From: Anaerolineales bacterium
Lineage (GTDB): Bacteria > Chloroflexota > Anaerolineae > Anaerolineales > E44-bin32
Direction of reading: 5' to 3'
Length of the DNA stretch: 64,000 bases
Assembly (NCBI GenBank): GCA_016927115.1
Contig: JAFGNH010000035.1
Coordinates: forward strand, 1-64,000
Part shown: positions 47,535 through 58,113 of the stretch, one piece after another
Layout of the letters: each line of letters begins with the position of its first letter
Position numbering within the stretch: the stretch's first letter is position 1
Notes under the pieces: generated by a model
Seen by the model: the letters and a program-made list of their open reading frames with translations, nothing else
What the model was told of the DNA's origin: nothing
The model's database searches: none
Translations under genes and position numbers: made by a program

Positions 47535-48509
47535 TTACCAATCAGGATATGCATCCACAAAGGCATCGTTTGTAAGCTGAACCGCACCAGACCCATCTGC
47601 ATTTACAACCCAGAGGTCGAGCTGGCCATCGTGATTGGACGCGTAAACAATGCGCTCGCCATCCGGTGACCATGAAGGCCCGGTGTCGTTGTATTGATCG
47701 CTGGTCAGGCGTACCACACTGCCGGTATCACCTCCCCGATCTATGATGTACAGCTCTGAGGCAGTGCTGCTGCCGTAGATGAAGGCAATACGCTGGCTGT
47801 CCGGTGACCAGGCTGCACCTGTTACCGGGCTGGCACCATCCGTGATCTGGGTGATGTCGCTTCCATCCGGATTCATAAGGAAGAGTTCCATATTCCCGGT
47901 CCTGTTGGACAGGAACAGGATGCTGCTGCTATCCGGAGCCCAGCGCGGATTGTAATCAACCGTCTCCGGGGCATCCACGAGTTCACTGAGATTTTCACCA
48001 CTTACATCGATTGTATACAGATCAGGTATATCCTGCGGCTCGTTCTGAAAATCGGATTGAAAAACGATCTTGCTTCCATCCGGTGACCAATCGGGATTAT
48101 TGCTGCGAAAATCGGTGATCCTGGTCAGGCCGCTGCCATCTGCTGCAATGGTAAATAGATTCCAGGCATCCGGTTCTGAAAAAACAATCGTATTGTGATC
48201 CGGCGACCACGATGCAAGGATTGAAGGCATACCCGTATTCAATGGTGTAACATCCAGTGATACCGGGTCAAGGAGATAAAGGTCGAGAAGCTCCGGGTCT
48301 TCACTGCGGTTGGAAGTAAACACAATGGGAGCATTACCGTCAGGCGGTTCCGGTGTGGGCATATCTGTTGCAGTTTCTGTAGGCAGAGGGTCGGTGGGGG
48401 CGGATGTGCCGGCAGGATCAGGAAGATCAGCAGGTACTGGCTCTGCCTGTGGCGTACAGGCTGCCAGTAAAAGAAGAACTACAGGGAAGACTTTCCGACA
48501 GACTCTCAT
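47535..48509 (-). CDS. TolB-like beta-propeller (PD40) lipoprotein
   Basis: A 324-residue exported protein. The lipobox LLLAAC gives an anchored Cys18. A Pro/Thr/Glu-rich linker (about 20-60) precedes five to six repeats of the WSPDG(S/E)(K/R)I(V/A)F type: WSPDHNTIVFSE, WSPDGSKIVFQS, WAPDSSSILFLS, WSPDSQRIAFIY and WSPDGERIVYAS. The propeller is probably a binding scaffold on the cell surface; no enzyme site is seen. The start at 48509 has AAGGAG 6 bases upstream; a longer frame to 48548 is rejected. Confidence 0.87.
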   Translation of the reverse strand: MRVCRKVFPVVLLLLAACTPQAEPVPADLPDPAGTSAPTDPLPTETATDMPTPEPPDGNAPIVFTSNRSEDPELLDLYLLDPVSLDVTPLNTGMPSILASWSPDHNTIVFSEPDAWNLFTIAADGSGLTRITDFRSNNPDWSPDGSKIVFQSDFQNEPQDIPDLYTIDVSGENLSELVDAPETVDYNPRWAPDSSSILFLSNRTGNMELFLMNPDGSDITQITDGASPVTGAAWSPDSQRIAFIYGSSTASELYIIDRGGDTGSVVRLTSDQYNDTGPSWSPDGERIVYASNHDGQLDLWVVNADGSGAVQLTNDAFVDAYPDW

Positions 48510-48571
48510 GTCTCGCTCCTTTTTCAAAAGGGTTCCTGCAAGCAGCATCGGATGATATAGCTGTTCAGCGT

Positions 48572-48757: not shown

Positions 48758-49513
48758 CTACACCTGAATGGCCCGGCGGATTTCACCAGCCAGAGAACCA
48801 AACGTTTTCGTATGTTTCAGATCCAGCGTGCGGGGGCGCGGGAAAGAAATGGGCAAATCAAGCTTGAGCTGCGCCGGTCGTTTGCTCAGCACCAGAACAC
48901 GATCAGACAGCAGGATGGCTTCCGATATTGAGTGGGTAACCATCACAACTGTTACCGGCTTTGCCTGCCAGATCCTGATCAACTCGCTGCCCATCCGCTC
49001 TCTGGTCAATGCATCCAGTGCACCGAACGGTTCATCAAGATAAAGGACTTCCGGTTCGTTGATCAATGCGCGGGCGATTGCCACCCGCTGGGCCATACCA
49101 CCCGAAAGATCGCCTGGATACGTTTTCTCAAACCCGGCCAGACCAACGAGTTCCAGCATGGAGACTGCTCGCCGGCGGTTATCCGCACTGCTGCGGTATT
49201 CCAGTTCAAGCGGCAGCAGGACATTTTCAATAACCGTCCGCCACGGCATCAAATTGGCATTCTGGAAAACAAACCCTACCCTGTAGATGTTATTCTGAGT
49301 CTGCCGCCCTGGGTAGAAAACCTCGCCATCAGAGGGAGGAAGCAGTCCTGCAAGCACACGCAGCAGTGTTGTTTTTCCACAACCCGACGGCCCGATCAGG
49401 CAAACAAATTCCTGGGAGGCGATTGAGAAGCTGAGATCCTGGAGTACATCAAGCTCTCCCTGATCATTGGTGAATACTTTTATCAGATTATCTACTCGAA
49501 TCGCTGTTTCCAT
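48758..49513 (-). CDS. ABC transporter ATP-binding protein (SsuB/NMT1-type importer)
   Basis: A 251-residue ATPase. Walker A is GPSGCGKTTLLRV, the Q-loop is FVFQNANLMPW, the signature is LSGGMAQRVAIARAL, Walker B is LYLDEPFGALD, and the switch His is in VMVTHSISEA. The FQ.A.LMPWRTV and GALDALTR blocks fit SsuB/TauB/ThiZ-type importers. It is the last gene behind the FMN riboswitch, so it most likely powers riboflavin uptake with the two proteins upstream. AAGGGA lies 4 bases before the ATG. Confidence 0.88.
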   Translation of the reverse strand: METAIRVDNLIKVFTNDQGELDVLQDLSFSIASQEFVCLIGPSGCGKTTLLRVLAGLLPPSDGEVFYPGRQTQNNIYRVGFVFQNANLMPWRTVIENVLLPLELEYRSSADNRRRAVSMLELVGLAGFEKTYPGDLSGGMAQRVAIARALINEPEVLYLDEPFGALDALTRERMGSELIRIWQAKPVTVVMVTHSISEAILLSDRVLVLSKRPAQLKLDLPISFPRPRTLDLKHTKTFGSLAGEIRRAIQV

Positions 49514-49631
49514 GGGTTCCCTTCTATCCCACCCTGAGAACAGGGGGGGGCCAGTCTCCTGCCGAAAGGGCTGTACTCCTGTTTTCCGCCACCATATCCA
49601 GAAAATCTATCAGCAGTTCCCTGTCCGGATC

Positions 49632-50627
49632 TCAGGGTAGAAACTCATTGGTATACGCATCTTCGAGATTCAAGGGCTCCGTGAGCAGGTCCATTTCCAA
49701 CAAAACATCCTGCATGTTCTGCCATGCTTCAGGATTCGACATTCCAATGATCTCGCTTTCCCAGAAGTTGATGCTCTCTTGCAGAACCTTCTCCTGGATC
49801 GTGCTGGTGCTCTCATCAAGCCCATCTACATATTTCTCACAGGCAGCAAAAGCCCGATCGGTATCTGCCATACTACTTTCGATGGAACTGACCATAGCAG
49901 CTACCATCGCCCGGACAAGCTCCGGCTGTTCCTCGATCATGGTTTCGCTGGTGATCAATCCATTCGAAGCCAGGGTAACATAATCAGAAACGCGGATCAC
50001 ATCAACTGGCATACCCATCGATTCAAGCTGAAGCGGTTCATTTGCAGAGTAAATCACAACCGCTTCTTCAACTCCCTGCAGCAGCAGCTCAACCTGGTTG
50101 TACCCGATTGTGTCCAGGTAGATAGTCTCCGGTGAAATGCCGGCAGCGTTCAACAGTGCCCGGTAACCGACATACGATGCACCGGACAGCACCGGGATTC
50201 CCACCTTCTTACCCACCAGATCCTGCGGTTCTGTGATGCTGCTGTTTACAGGAGCCGCAACCCCAACGGGATAATCCTGGTACCATGCTGTAACATATAC
50301 CACAGGCAGGCCCTGTGCCCGGGCCAGGAGCACCTGCTCACCTGATACCACCGCAAACGGTACTTCACCCGCCCCCACCAGTGTGACGGCATCGCTTTCC
50401 TGGGTATGCTCGATGAGGAGATTGATCCCTGCACGCTTGAAGAATCCTTCTTCCATACCAACATAAAACGGTGCAAACTGAACATCCGGCCGGTACGGCA
50501 GAATCAACCTCACATCTTCAAGCTCAGATGGTGATTGTACTTCGGCCGGCTCTGCAGCTGGTGAACTACAGGCTGAGACCAGCAGCACCAAGATAAACAA
50601 GACTGGGAAGAAGCGTAGAATTCTCAT
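49632..50627 (-). CDS. ribY: Substrate-binding lipoprotein of a riboflavin-type ABC importer
   Basis: A 331-residue NMT1/THI5-like solute-binding lipoprotein. The lipobox LVSAC gives Cys20. The mature part starts VRLILPYRPDVQFAPFYVGMEEGFFK, the NMT1 motif, with GKKVGIPVLSGASYVGYRALL in domain 2. NMT1-like proteins bind pyrimidine or flavin-type ligands. Placement behind an FMN riboswitch makes riboflavin the most likely ligand, matching the known RibXY systems of Chloroflexi. GGAGG lies 9 bases upstream. The 118 bases to the ATPase gene show nothing. Confidence 0.82.
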   Translation of the reverse strand: MRILRFFPVLFILVLLVSACSSPAAEPAEVQSPSELEDVRLILPYRPDVQFAPFYVGMEEGFFKRAGINLLIEHTQESDAVTLVGAGEVPFAVVSGEQVLLARAQGLPVVYVTAWYQDYPVGVAAPVNSSITEPQDLVGKKVGIPVLSGASYVGYRALLNAAGISPETIYLDTIGYNQVELLLQGVEEAVVIYSANEPLQLESMGMPVDVIRVSDYVTLASNGLITSETMIEEQPELVRAMVAAMVSSIESSMADTDRAFAACEKYVDGLDESTSTIQEKVLQESINFWESEIIGMSNPEAWQNMQDVLLEMDLLTEPLNLEDAYTNEFLP

Positions 50628-50652
50628 TTAGATAAACCTCCATACAGTAAAT

Positions 50653-51438
50653 TCAAATAGATTGCCAGGAAAGTACCCGGCGCTCTATCAAGGTGACAAG
50701 TCCATAAAGCCCCAGTGCCAGGGCAATCAGGACAAAAACCGCAGCAAAAACAAGCGCTGTATCATACATACCGCGGGCAACATTAATCAGGAAACCAAGC
50801 CCTTCATCAGCTCCTACAAACTCTCCGACTACCGCTCCGATGACAGAGAGCGTTGCGCCCACTCTTACACCCCCGAGATAGACCGGCATCGCAGCTGGAA
50901 GCTCAAGCCGGGTAAAAACCTGCCAGCGGGTGGCTTTTAATATGCGCATCAGATCATGAAGATCTTCAGGTACTGAACGGATCCCAACCATTGTGTTTAC
51001 CAGAACCGGAAAGAAAACCAGAAGGGAAGAAATGAGTATCTTGGACAACTTGCCAGGGCCGAACCATATCACCAGCAGTGGTGCAATAGCTACCGTTGGA
51101 ATGGATTGGGAGGCAACGATATACGGTGATAGCAGTTTTTCTGCTACCGGAGACTTTGCCAGCAGCGTTCCGAGTGCAGTAGCAATCGCTAATCCGAGCG
51201 CCAATCCGGCCAGAACTTCCTGCAGGGTCACGGCCACATGCTGCAGCAGCACACCGCTCTGGATGGTCTGGATCAGCCGCAGTGCTACTGCCTCCGGGGA
51301 AGGCAGCAAATAGGCGGGCAGGAAACTCAAGCGAGTGACTGCCTCCCATAGAACCAGGGTGAGTACAACAGGCAGCGGCTTCATCCACATTGGTACCGGT
51401 GGATTATTACCTGAGGAAACTATTCCTTCACTTCCCAT
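50653..51438 (-). CDS. ribX: ABC permease of a riboflavin-type importer
   Basis: A 261-residue SsuC/ThiX-type permease with six helices. The EAA-like loop reads MRILKATRWQVFTRLELPAAMPVYLGGVRVGATLSVIGAVVGEF, the classical permease signature before the last helices. It forms the membrane pore with the lipoprotein and ATPase downstream. It is the first gene after the FMN riboswitch, and its ATG has GGAG 6 bases upstream. Riboflavin specificity is inferred from the riboswitch, not from the permease itself. Confidence 0.83.
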   Translation of the reverse strand: MGSEGIVSSGNNPPVPMWMKPLPVVLTLVLWEAVTRLSFLPAYLLPSPEAVALRLIQTIQSGVLLQHVAVTLQEVLAGLALGLAIATALGTLLAKSPVAEKLLSPYIVASQSIPTVAIAPLLVIWFGPGKLSKILISSLLVFFPVLVNTMVGIRSVPEDLHDLMRILKATRWQVFTRLELPAAMPVYLGGVRVGATLSVIGAVVGEFVGADEGLGFLINVARGMYDTALVFAAVFVLIALALGLYGLVTLIERRVLSWQSI

Positions 51439-51499
51439 CCTTCACTCCTGCCACACTTCCCTATCCTGCTGGCCCGATCTGATACTCTTGCCGGCCTGT

Positions 51500-51534
51500 T
51501 TAAAAAGAGAAGCCCTGAGACGAGTCTTCAGGGC
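51500..51534 (-). terminator. Riboswitch-controlled intrinsic terminator
   Basis: GCCCTG and AGA (from 51534) pair with TCT and CAGGGC (to 51512) around a CTCG loop, with a single bulged A, followed by TTCTCTTTTT. It lies 62 bases before the permease start. The 5' arm GCCCTGAAG is complementary to the first strand of the FMN aptamer, consistent with a switch between termination and read-through. Confidence 0.82.
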
Positions 51535-51569
51535 GTTAAACGGAGACCCACCCGGGTTCCGTAGAATTA

Positions 51570-51688
51570 CCTTCTTCCATCCGGACTATACCGTCGGCTC
51601 CGGAGTCACACCGGATCATGCACTAAGGCTTGCGGGCTGTACCGCCGATCGGGAATTGGGTCGTTAGACCCTCACCCTGCCCTGAAGG
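51570..51688 (-). promoter_or_regulatory. FMN riboswitch aptamer (RFN element)
   Basis: Read on the minus strand, the conserved RFN landmarks occur in order: CTTCAGGGCAGGGTG, CCCGATCGGCGGTA, AGCCCGC(A)AGCC, GGTGTGACTCCGGAGCCGAC, GGTATAGTCCGGATG and GAAGAAGG. P1 is CCTTC (51684-51688) pairing with GAAGG (51570-51574). FMN binding should favour the downstream terminator and shut off the importer. The variable P3-type arm is short. The signature is too specific for a TPP or cobalamin element. Confidence 0.93.
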
Positions 51689-51702
51689 CTTCAATTTGCC
51701 TC

Positions 51703-51708
51703 ATTATA
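51703..51708 (-). promoter_or_regulatory. -10 box of the riboswitch-controlled operon
   Basis: A perfect TATAAT on the minus strand, 14 bases before the aptamer P1, would start the RNA near 51695. No good TTGACA is seen 16-18 bases further up (sequence around 51725-51731 is CTCAAG-like), so an extra factor or extended -10 contact may help. Confidence 0.6.
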
Positions 51709-52001: not shown

Positions 52002-52673
52002 CTACACATTCAACTCCTTCACCTCACCAGTGCACACAAAAATAACCCGTTCAGCAATATTCGTAACCCGGTCTGCAATCCTCTCCAGGTTATGAGCGCA
52101 CCACAACAGATACGTAGCTCGCTCCACTGCTTCCGGTTTATTCGCCATAATCTCAACAAGCTCATCAAAAACTGCCTTATAAAGCCTGTCCATGGAATCA
52201 TCTTTTGATGCAATTTCGCGAGCCTTGACGACATCACGGTTGATAAAGGCAACCAGGGATTCACGCAGCATTGAACGGGCAAGTTCAGCCATGCGGGGAA
52301 TATCAACCAGTGGTTTCAACAGCGGGGCATCCCCCATTCGCAGCACCGTCTTGGCTATTCCGGCAGCATGATCGCCCATACGCTCAATATCCACAACGAT
52401 ACTCATGGCGGCAACTACCGCCCGCAAATCGGTTGCAGCCGGCTGCTGAGTGGCAATCAATCGCAAACAGGCTTCCTCGACTCTGAACCGCAGCCGGTTT
52501 ATCTCGATATCCTCGTCAATGATTTCCTGCGCCAGCACTGCATCACGGTTCCGTAAGGACAGAATGGATCTGTCGATTGCTCGATCCACCAGGTCCCGGA
52601 TGCGCAGAAGATCCTCCTCTATTGCCGCATATTCCCGATCATAAGTCGCACGAAGATTCTGCTTTGGTCCCAT
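52002..52673 (-). CDS. phoU: Phosphate transport regulator PhoU
   Basis: A 223-residue all-helical protein with two PhoU repeats. Each carries the metal-binding region: DIERMGDHAAGIAKTV in the first half and HNLERIADRVTNIAERVIFV in the second. It represses phosphate-starvation signalling through the PstSCAB-PhoR system; those partners are not in the window. The start at 52673 has AGGAG a few bases upstream. It stands alone, facing the same way as tsaC. Confidence 0.93.
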   Translation of the reverse strand: MGPKQNLRATYDREYAAIEEDLLRIRDLVDRAIDRSILSLRNRDAVLAQEIIDEDIEINRLRFRVEEACLRLIATQQPAATDLRAVVAAMSIVVDIERMGDHAAGIAKTVLRMGDAPLLKPLVDIPRMAELARSMLRESLVAFINRDVVKAREIASKDDSMDRLYKAVFDELVEIMANKPEAVERATYLLWCAHNLERIADRVTNIAERVIFVCTGEVKELNV

Positions 52674-55788: not shown

Positions 55789-58113
55789 ATGAAATTCAGA
55801 AGACCCTTAGCAGCGATCCTGTTCACCCTGCTCTTTACAGTATGTTCGTTCGGAGCTGTCTCAGCCGATGGGATCATCATTCCGGAACCACCGATCTGTG
55901 ATCCCTGGCCTTGCCCTGATCCTTTTCCTATTGAACAGCTGGCCATTGTCTACCATCGTGTCACTGTGGCCATCGAAGATCAGGTGGCTGTCACTCACGT
56001 CGACCAGGTATTCCGAAACGACCAGAATTGGGCTATCGAAGGTACGTATGTTTTCCCTCTGCCAGAGGACGCAGCCGTATCTGCCTTTACCCTCTGGATA
56101 GACAATGAGCCTGTTGAGGCAAAAATCCTCGATCGAGAGGAAGCGCGGCAGATTTACGAAGAGATCGTCCGCCAACTGCGCGACCCGGCTCTGCTGGAAT
56201 ACGTCGACCGCGGTGCGGTTCAGGCTTCTGTTTTCCCCATCGAACCGGGCGAAGAAAGACGTATCGAACTCGAATATTCGCAGGCACTTACCGCGGAACA
56301 AGGTCTTATCCACTACAGCTACCCTCTCAATACTGAAAAATTTTCCGCCCTGCCGCTGGAAGAAGTCTCCATCTCCGTTAATGTCACCTCCGGACAGCCT
56401 GTCCGGGCTGTGTATTCTCCCACCCACTCCATTGCTGTCGACCGGCAGGGCGACCAGGCATTCCGTGTGGGTTATGAAGCATATGACGTTACGCCCGATA
56501 AGGATTTCGATCTGTATTATTCGGTAAGCATGGAAGATATCGGTGTGAATCTCCTCACCTACAGGGATCCTTACCAGGATGATGAAGATGGCTTCTTCCT
56601 GCTTATGGCTGCACCGGGTTTTGAAATTGACCCTGAGCAGCGCCTGCCGCAGGATGTCTTCTTTGTGCTGGACCAATCCGGCAGTATGGAAGGAGACAAA
56701 TTCCTGCAGGCTCAGCAGGCTGCGGAATACGTACTGGAACACCTTGACTCTGAAGACCGATTTAATATTCTCAGTTTCAGCACCGGTGTGCGCTCTTACT
56801 CCCACAAACTGGAATCAACAAACCATATCGAGGATGCTTTACACTGGCTGCATACACTTGCTCCCATGGGTTCCACCGATATTAATCTGGCACTGCTGGA
56901 AGCTGTCAGCCAGGTGGATCCCGATCGGCCCACACTTATAATATTCCTCACAGATGGCCTCCCCACAGAAGGTGTGGTGGAAGCACCGGAAATTCTGAAC
57001 AATCTCTCCCGGGAAGCGCCGGAGAATGTGCGCCTGTTCGCTTTCGGTGTGGGCTATGATGTCGATACTTTCCTGCTGGACTCGCTGGCCAACAACCATC
57101 ATGGTGATACAACGTATGTATCTCCAGGTCAGCCCCTGGATGAAGTTGTTTCCGGTTTCTACGCCAAAGTCAGCACACCTGTACTGACGAACCTGACCTT
57201 CGAAACAGGGGATATCCAGCTGTACGACCTCCATCCGGCACCCATCCCCGATCTTTTCGCCGGGAGCCAGATTCTTCTCACCGGACGCTACCGGGGCAGC
57301 GGGATAACCACACTCACACTCAATGGCAACCTGCTGCAGGAGCAGCGATCCTTCACCTATTCTGGAGTTTCTTTTCACCGCAGCGGGGGATCGGACTTTA
57401 TTCCCCGCCTGTGGGCTACCCGAAAAATCGGCACCCTGCTTAACCAGGTCCGGCTGAACGGGCCCGAGCAGGAAGTGATCGATCAGATCATCGCCATCAG
57501 CATCCGCTACGGCATCATTACTCCCTACACGTCTTTCCTCGTCACCGAACCGGAATTCCTCGGCCATGAAGCCCAGAATACGCTCTCGGAAGAATTCTAT
57601 GCTGATGAGATGGCTGCAGCACCTTCCGTTTCCGGGGAATTTGCTGTCGAACGCGCTGAAGCAGAAAACTCAATCCGGTCTGCTGAAGTGCCACTCGAAG
57701 TAGAGGGGTCAGACGCTGATATTGTGCAAATCGCCGGTACCCGTACTTTCCGCCTGGTCGATGGAACCTGGATTGATACACAGGTCGACCCTGAAAAAGT
57801 AAACGCGATCCGGATACCTTTTCTTTCGGATGCCTATTTTGAGCTCAGTGCATCGTCAAGCGAAGCTGCTGCCTCCCTGGCCCTGGGTGAAAAAGTAATC
57901 CTCAGAATCGGTGAGAGAACCTATGAAATTGTAGGGGTGGACGAAGCCGGGGACTCCTTTGAGCTTCCCGCCACATCCGGTCAGGAAAGCGAATCTGATA
58001 CCGAAAACAATGAGGCAGCTGGAAAATCCGACGGTCTCGTATTCTGCCCCGGCTTTCTGCTTTTCGGAGCAGTCTTCCTTCCGATCGGTTTAAAAGCAGG
58101 GTCCTGGAGATAG
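55789..58113 (+). CDS. Secreted VIT/VWA-domain surface protein
   Basis: A 774-residue exported protein with a signal peptide (about 1-26, cut near VSADG). A VIT (vault inter-alpha-trypsin) domain covers about 45-170 (VYHRVTVAIEDQVAVTHVDQVF; REEARQIYEEIVRQ; ALLEYV..GAVQASVFPI). A VWA domain begins FFVLDQSGSMEGDK with MIDAS D295, S297 and S299 intact, and later IIFLTDGLPTEG. The C-terminus has a short hydrophobic stretch starting CPGFLLFG and a final basic residue, like a C-terminal sorting signal. It probably binds metal-dependent ligands at the cell surface. GGAGG lies 6 bases before the ATG. Confidence 0.9.
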   Translation: MKFRRPLAAILFTLLFTVCSFGAVSADGIIIPEPPICDPWPCPDPFPIEQLAIVYHRVTVAIEDQVAVTHVDQVFRNDQNWAIEGTYVFPLPEDAAVSAFTLWIDNEPVEAKILDREEARQIYEEIVRQLRDPALLEYVDRGAVQASVFPIEPGEERRIELEYSQALTAEQGLIHYSYPLNTEKFSALPLEEVSISVNVTSGQPVRAVYSPTHSIAVDRQGDQAFRVGYEAYDVTPDKDFDLYYSVSMEDIGVNLLTYRDPYQDDEDGFFLLMAAPGFEIDPEQRLPQDVFFVLDQSGSMEGDKFLQAQQAAEYVLEHLDSEDRFNILSFSTGVRSYSHKLESTNHIEDALHWLHTLAPMGSTDINLALLEAVSQVDPDRPTLIIFLTDGLPTEGVVEAPEILNNLSREAPENVRLFAFGVGYDVDTFLLDSLANNHHGDTTYVSPGQPLDEVVSGFYAKVSTPVLTNLTFETGDIQLYDLHPAPIPDLFAGSQILLTGRYRGSGITTLTLNGNLLQEQRSFTYSGVSFHRSGGSDFIPRLWATRKIGTLLNQVRLNGPEQEVIDQIIAISIRYGIITPYTSFLVTEPEFLGHEAQNTLSEEFYADEMAAAPSVSGEFAVERAEAENSIRSAEVPLEVEGSDADIVQIAGTRTFRLVDGTWIDTQVDPEKVNAIRIPFLSDAYFELSASSSEAAASLALGEKVILRIGERTYEIVGVDEAGDSFELPATSGQESESDTENNEAAGKSDGLVFCPGFLLFGAVFLPIGLKAGSWR

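Follow-up and report, generated by a model that had tools for sequence, protein, structure and literature searches.

A very probable RibXYZ-type riboflavin importer operon behind an FMN riboswitch in an uncultured Anaerolineales lineage

RfuABCD and ECF-RibU are riboflavin importers that share the substrate we propose for the transporter described here, and they represent protein families other than that of its NMT1-type binding protein. The closest described systems are those of the RibXY type, which a 2013 study predicted for Chloroflexi on the strength of FMN riboswitches and presented without an ATPase (PMC3766115). In 2015, RibXY of Chloroflexus aurantiacus (Caur_0816-0817) was found to enable a riboflavin-auxotrophic E. 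coli to grow when riboflavin was low (PMC4418817). That paper cites Rodionova et al. 2014 for the earlier finding of a ribZ ATPase adjoining ribXY in a few Chloroflexi and, as far as the citing description goes, that system has the same three components as ours.

We analysed a window of 64,000 nucleotides (the whole stretch of DNA considered here) from an Anaerolineales bacterium, and consider it very likely, from sequence comparison, that it encodes a RibXYZ-type riboflavin ABC importer under an FMN transcription-attenuation riboswitch. The original prediction had read the locus as a RibXY-type riboflavin importer; this reading gains support from the Rfam match to the FMN riboswitch and the best matches of RibX and RibY to the tested C. 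aurantiacus pair, from the recurrence of the FMN riboswitch with ribX/ribY in related Chloroflexota and some Actinomycetota, from the missing riboflavin synthesis genes, and from the location of the TPP riboswitch elsewhere in the genome. The features, in the direction of transcription, are as follows.

51703-51708, minus strand: putative -10 box, a perfect TATAAT read in the sequence
51565-51693, minus strand: FMN riboswitch aptamer (RFN element; RF00050, 93.4 bits)
51679-51687, minus strand: predicted antiterminator 5' arm, CUUCAGGGC, overlapping the 5' edge of the aptamer
51526-51534, minus strand: predicted antiterminator 3' arm, GCCCUGAAG, overlapping the 5' arm of the terminator
51502-51534, minus strand: intrinsic terminator from folding, hairpin 51534-51512 plus U-rich tail 51511-51502
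50653-51438, minus strand: ribX, ABC permease, 261 aa (PF00528, E 2.1e-35)
49632-50627, minus strand: ribY, NMT1-type substrate-binding lipoprotein, 331 aa, lipobox LVSAC (PF09084, E 3.8e-43)
48758-49513, minus strand: ribZ, ABC-type ATPase, 251 aa (PF00005, E 4.2e-32)

The order first proposed (permease, NMT1-type lipoprotein and ATPase on one strand) is thus that of the coordinates and of the Pfam families: the RibX permease (BPD_transp_1) adjoins RibY (NMT1), ribZ lies in the operon, giving the three-gene form, and the FMN riboswitch stands upstream of all three. The operon is followed by a gene for a PD40 beta-propeller lipoprotein (47535-48548), and the upstream neighbour of the riboswitch is PhoU (52002-52673, minus strand). 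Several relatives have another ABC ATPase, possibly PstB, upstream of ribX, which suggests that pst-phoU/rib synteny is conserved. Elsewhere in the window, 55789-58113 (plus strand) encodes a 774-aa protein with VIT and VWA domains (inter-alpha-trypsin-like).

Relationship to the tested RibXY pair and to other NMT1-type importers

We located the C. aurantiacus ribXY locus by means of the published forward primer (PMC4418817), which matched 1 of 158 genomes of the class of C. aurantiacus, a 5.26 Mb genome in which RibX and RibY are neighbours; no ABC ATPase was found after RibY at this locus. Of five NMT1 proteins compared from the window's genome, C. aurantiacus RibY matched the window RibY best (34%, E 6e-68; the runner-up had 28%, E 9e-22), and C. 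aurantiacus RibX likewise matched the window RibX best among the permeases of this genome that were compared (48% vs. 31-32% for the others). In the reverse direction, the window RibY found the C. aurantiacus RibY locus (E 2e-57 vs. 5e-29 for the next match), so that the comparison with a characterised RibY, proposed as a check on the original prediction, yields a reciprocal best match and hence orthology to the tested protein. The 34% identity falls short of the 38% identity at 80% coverage to the prototype RibY, a cut that served as an initial screen, was adjusted for some families by riboswitch and synteny, and is not a defining biological feature (PMC4418817).

Both loci belong to an FMN-controlled family in which a RibX permease is followed by a RibY NMT1-type lipoprotein carrying a common QFAP(F/Y)Y motif; they differ in the missing ATPase after ribY in C. 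aurantiacus and in identities of just 34% (RibY) and 48% (RibX). We take the FMN riboswitch of C. aurantiacus ribXY from the published description (PMC4418817); a pattern search for the aptamer at that locus gave no match. In the RibY tree, the window protein groups with FMN-linked RibY of related Chloroflexota (support 100/99; the five nearest), and long branches of their own set the other NMT1 proteins of this genome apart. The motif [VI]Q(F/Y)AP(F/Y/L)Y is present in all aligned RibY (31/31 in alignment A1 and 38/38 in A2), and in none of four paralogues in this genome or of two other NMT1 proteins of C. aurantiacus. The genome also holds a second NMT1-type importer (L099:5001-7542, contig C149 of G000; a binding protein with 28% identity to RibY, a permease and an ATPase), which lacks the QFAPFY motif; the one FMN riboswitch of the genome lies elsewhere.

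Automatic annotation would make the operon an importer of sulfonate, taurine or nitrate. Matches to the SsuA, TauA and NtrCD families do exist, but they are weak and all fall far under the curated cut-offs (e.g. SsuA, 70.5 vs. 163.5 bits), and FMN control has no link to sulfonates; we therefore reject this role, to which we assign a very small probability. The specific annotation as a riboflavin importer replaces this misleading default.

The best matches of the RibY structure model (pLDDT 93) are ThiY (3ix1) and the thiamin-binding protein 4nmy, at 22-25% identity; these two, the closest in sequence as well as in fold, have thiamine or its pyrimidine precursor as ligand. The fold and the gene types are indeed those of ThiXYZ, and the operon could on these grounds import a thiamine precursor with the FMN riboswitch merely incidental upstream. 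However, the riboswitch is of the FMN and not the TPP type and is conserved before orthologues across phyla, no TPP riboswitch was found in the window, and the ThiY motif DWxPNxxH, seen as DWYPNAVH and DWTPNTNH in 3ix1 and 4nmy, is replaced by YxPDVQFAPFY in the window RibY, which argues that the ligand site has changed. The only TPP riboswitch of the genome (L100/L094, contig C198 of G000) is at a different locus, where it precedes a thiamine-pyrophosphokinase-like gene and a thiamine-type ABC importer distinct from the one described here. With control, TPP locus and ligand motif all differing, we reject a role in thiamine-precursor uptake as highly improbable. There is a similarly slim chance that the main substrate is a flavin other than riboflavin (FMN, lumichrome or another vitamer), since C. 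aurantiacus RibY is cited as binding flavins in general (in the account given by PMC4418817); against this, growth on riboflavin has been obtained with the tested relative (PMC4418817), and riboflavin remains the ligand that we would assign to RibY.

The riboswitch leader and its alternative pairings

An FMN riboswitch before the operon had been claimed from the start, and the covariance check proposed for it returned a match to RF00050 at 51693-51565 on the minus strand that spans the full model (positions 1-138) and scores 93.4 bits against a gathering score of 66.2 (E 3.4e-20; Rfam covariance-model scan of the window). It is the sole Rfam match in the window at the gathering score, and a genome scan with RF00050 found no second FMN riboswitch elsewhere in the 4.8 Mb genome. 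Of the original prediction, the promoter holds up least well: the perfect TATAAT at 51708-51703 stands, but TACTCA is a poor -35 region and a promoter scan made no call at this site, so the promoter remains a guess.

The predicted terminator fared better, being borne out by folding. It sits between the aptamer and ribX, with a hairpin (51534-51512) followed by UUCUCUUUUU; the hairpin has a folding energy of -13.2 kcal/mol (z -3.36), which no shuffled sequence equalled. A simple terminator scanner overlooked it, probably because of a bulge in the hairpin. Upstream, CUUCAGGGC (51687-51679) is a perfect 9-bp complement of GCCCUGAAG (51534-51526), which consists of the 5' arm of the terminator plus two more bases; the terminator and antiterminator pairings are mutually exclusive, as expected for an FMN-controlled terminator. 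In relatives, an A is replaced by G and its partner is changed to C, so that the pairing is kept (CUUCGGGGC/GCCCCGAAG in L075 and CCUUCGGGGC/GCCCCGAAGG in L078), and L012 and L013 have 11 to 14 such pairs; the same search gave short or unconvincing matches only in L074, L093 and the Ktedonobacteria L014, L020 and L022. Several relatives may act on translation, as their hairpin lies near the start codon and is without a clear U-tract. Folding of the whole leader gave three states close in energy (-77.5, -76.2 and -74.4 kcal/mol), and folding alone is thus no proof of switching. Because relatives keep the antiterminator pairing through a compensated A-to-G change, we regard FMN-dependent termination as the likely mechanism on comparative grounds.

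We propose that, at low FMN, CUUCAGGGC in the leader would pair with GCCCUGAAG, block the terminator and allow ribX-ribY-ribZ to be transcribed. RibY, as a lipoprotein outside the membrane, would then capture riboflavin, which RibX and RibZ would carry inward, with RibZ presumably energising this transporter, and the FAD synthetase/flavokinase would turn riboflavin into FMN and FAD. At high FMN, the P1 stem of the aptamer would form, the terminator would be freed and transcription would stop. No new mechanism is involved: the operon is a confident annotation, in an uncultured lineage, of the already described RibXYZ system.

Riboflavin synthesis genes in the genome, the order and the class

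Lumazine synthase (RibH, PF00885) was found neither in this genome nor in the other 25 genomes of the order that were examined; the same search was positive in 14/14 control genomes. Of the 26 genomes of the order, 16 combine a completeness of at least 90% with a contamination of no more than 5%. DHBP synthase (RibB, PF00926) is likewise missing from this genome, and FAD synthetase (PF06574) is present in it and, overall, in 25/26 genomes of the order. Absences in this genome alone are no proof, since it is 92% complete with 6.75% contamination. The lack of lumazine synthase and DHBP synthase, together with the presence of FAD synthetase, makes a riboflavin need of this bacterium plausible, and suggests that uncultured bacteria of this kind may need riboflavin in the medium.

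Across the class, a lumazine synthase match was obtained in 28/297 genomes (26 of them strong) and a RibY relative, counted at E 1e-30 or better, in 246/297. The presence of RibY did not differ significantly in either direction between RibH-positive and RibH-negative genomes (18/26 vs. 228/271, Fisher p 0.10); any inference for the class therefore draws on missing synthesis and widespread RibY, not on anticorrelation. On this basis, we lean towards the view that most of this Chloroflexota class obtains its riboflavin mainly or solely through RibXYZ; if so, most of its species would be obligate riboflavin scavengers. Another riboflavin route may exist in 43 genomes of the class, which have neither a strong lumazine synthase match nor a RibY match at E 1e-30. 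Cultivation work, and ideas about vitamin exchange, can draw on this widespread absence of lumazine synthase from the class; the interest of the operon for vitamin ecology is modest. A 2014 paper reportedly deals with B-vitamin auxotrophy in Chloroflexi already, so auxotrophy as a principle is not new.

Gene order in relatives and the place of ribZ

The Rfam scan of relatives' loci, which covered those other than L029-L031, L034, L036, L042-L044 and L048-L050, showed ribX/ribY together with an FMN riboswitch again in related Chloroflexota and at some loci of Actinomycetota. Among the loci examined, the order riboswitch-ribX-ribY-ribZ is that of the Anaerolineales, the window's order, and relatives; L035 and L037 have riboswitch-ribZ-ribX-ribY, and L012, L013, L014, L020, L022 and the Actinomycetota have riboswitch-ribX-ribY without a neighbouring ATPase. 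The original prediction had singled out the ATPase encoded in the operon, and this contrasts with RibXY as described without one (PMC3766115); yet ribZ was already known in a few Chloroflexi (in the account of PMC4418817), and its position downstream of ribY is kept in relatives and is the usual arrangement across the order.

In Deinococci, ribY has been described as monocistronic, with the permease unlocated (PMC4418817). We observed that an ABC ATPase and a RibX-like permease are fused in a single ORF (PF00005 + PF00528) in Meiothermus and in a Deinococcales genome (L017:953-2431, L018:3547-5124, L023:3617-5098 and L036:4191-5681). In L017, L018 and L023 this ORF shares its strand with the FMN riboswitch in front of ribY and lies upstream of that riboswitch. 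We regard the ATPase-permease fusion as a candidate for the components that the described Deinococci ribY system lacks.
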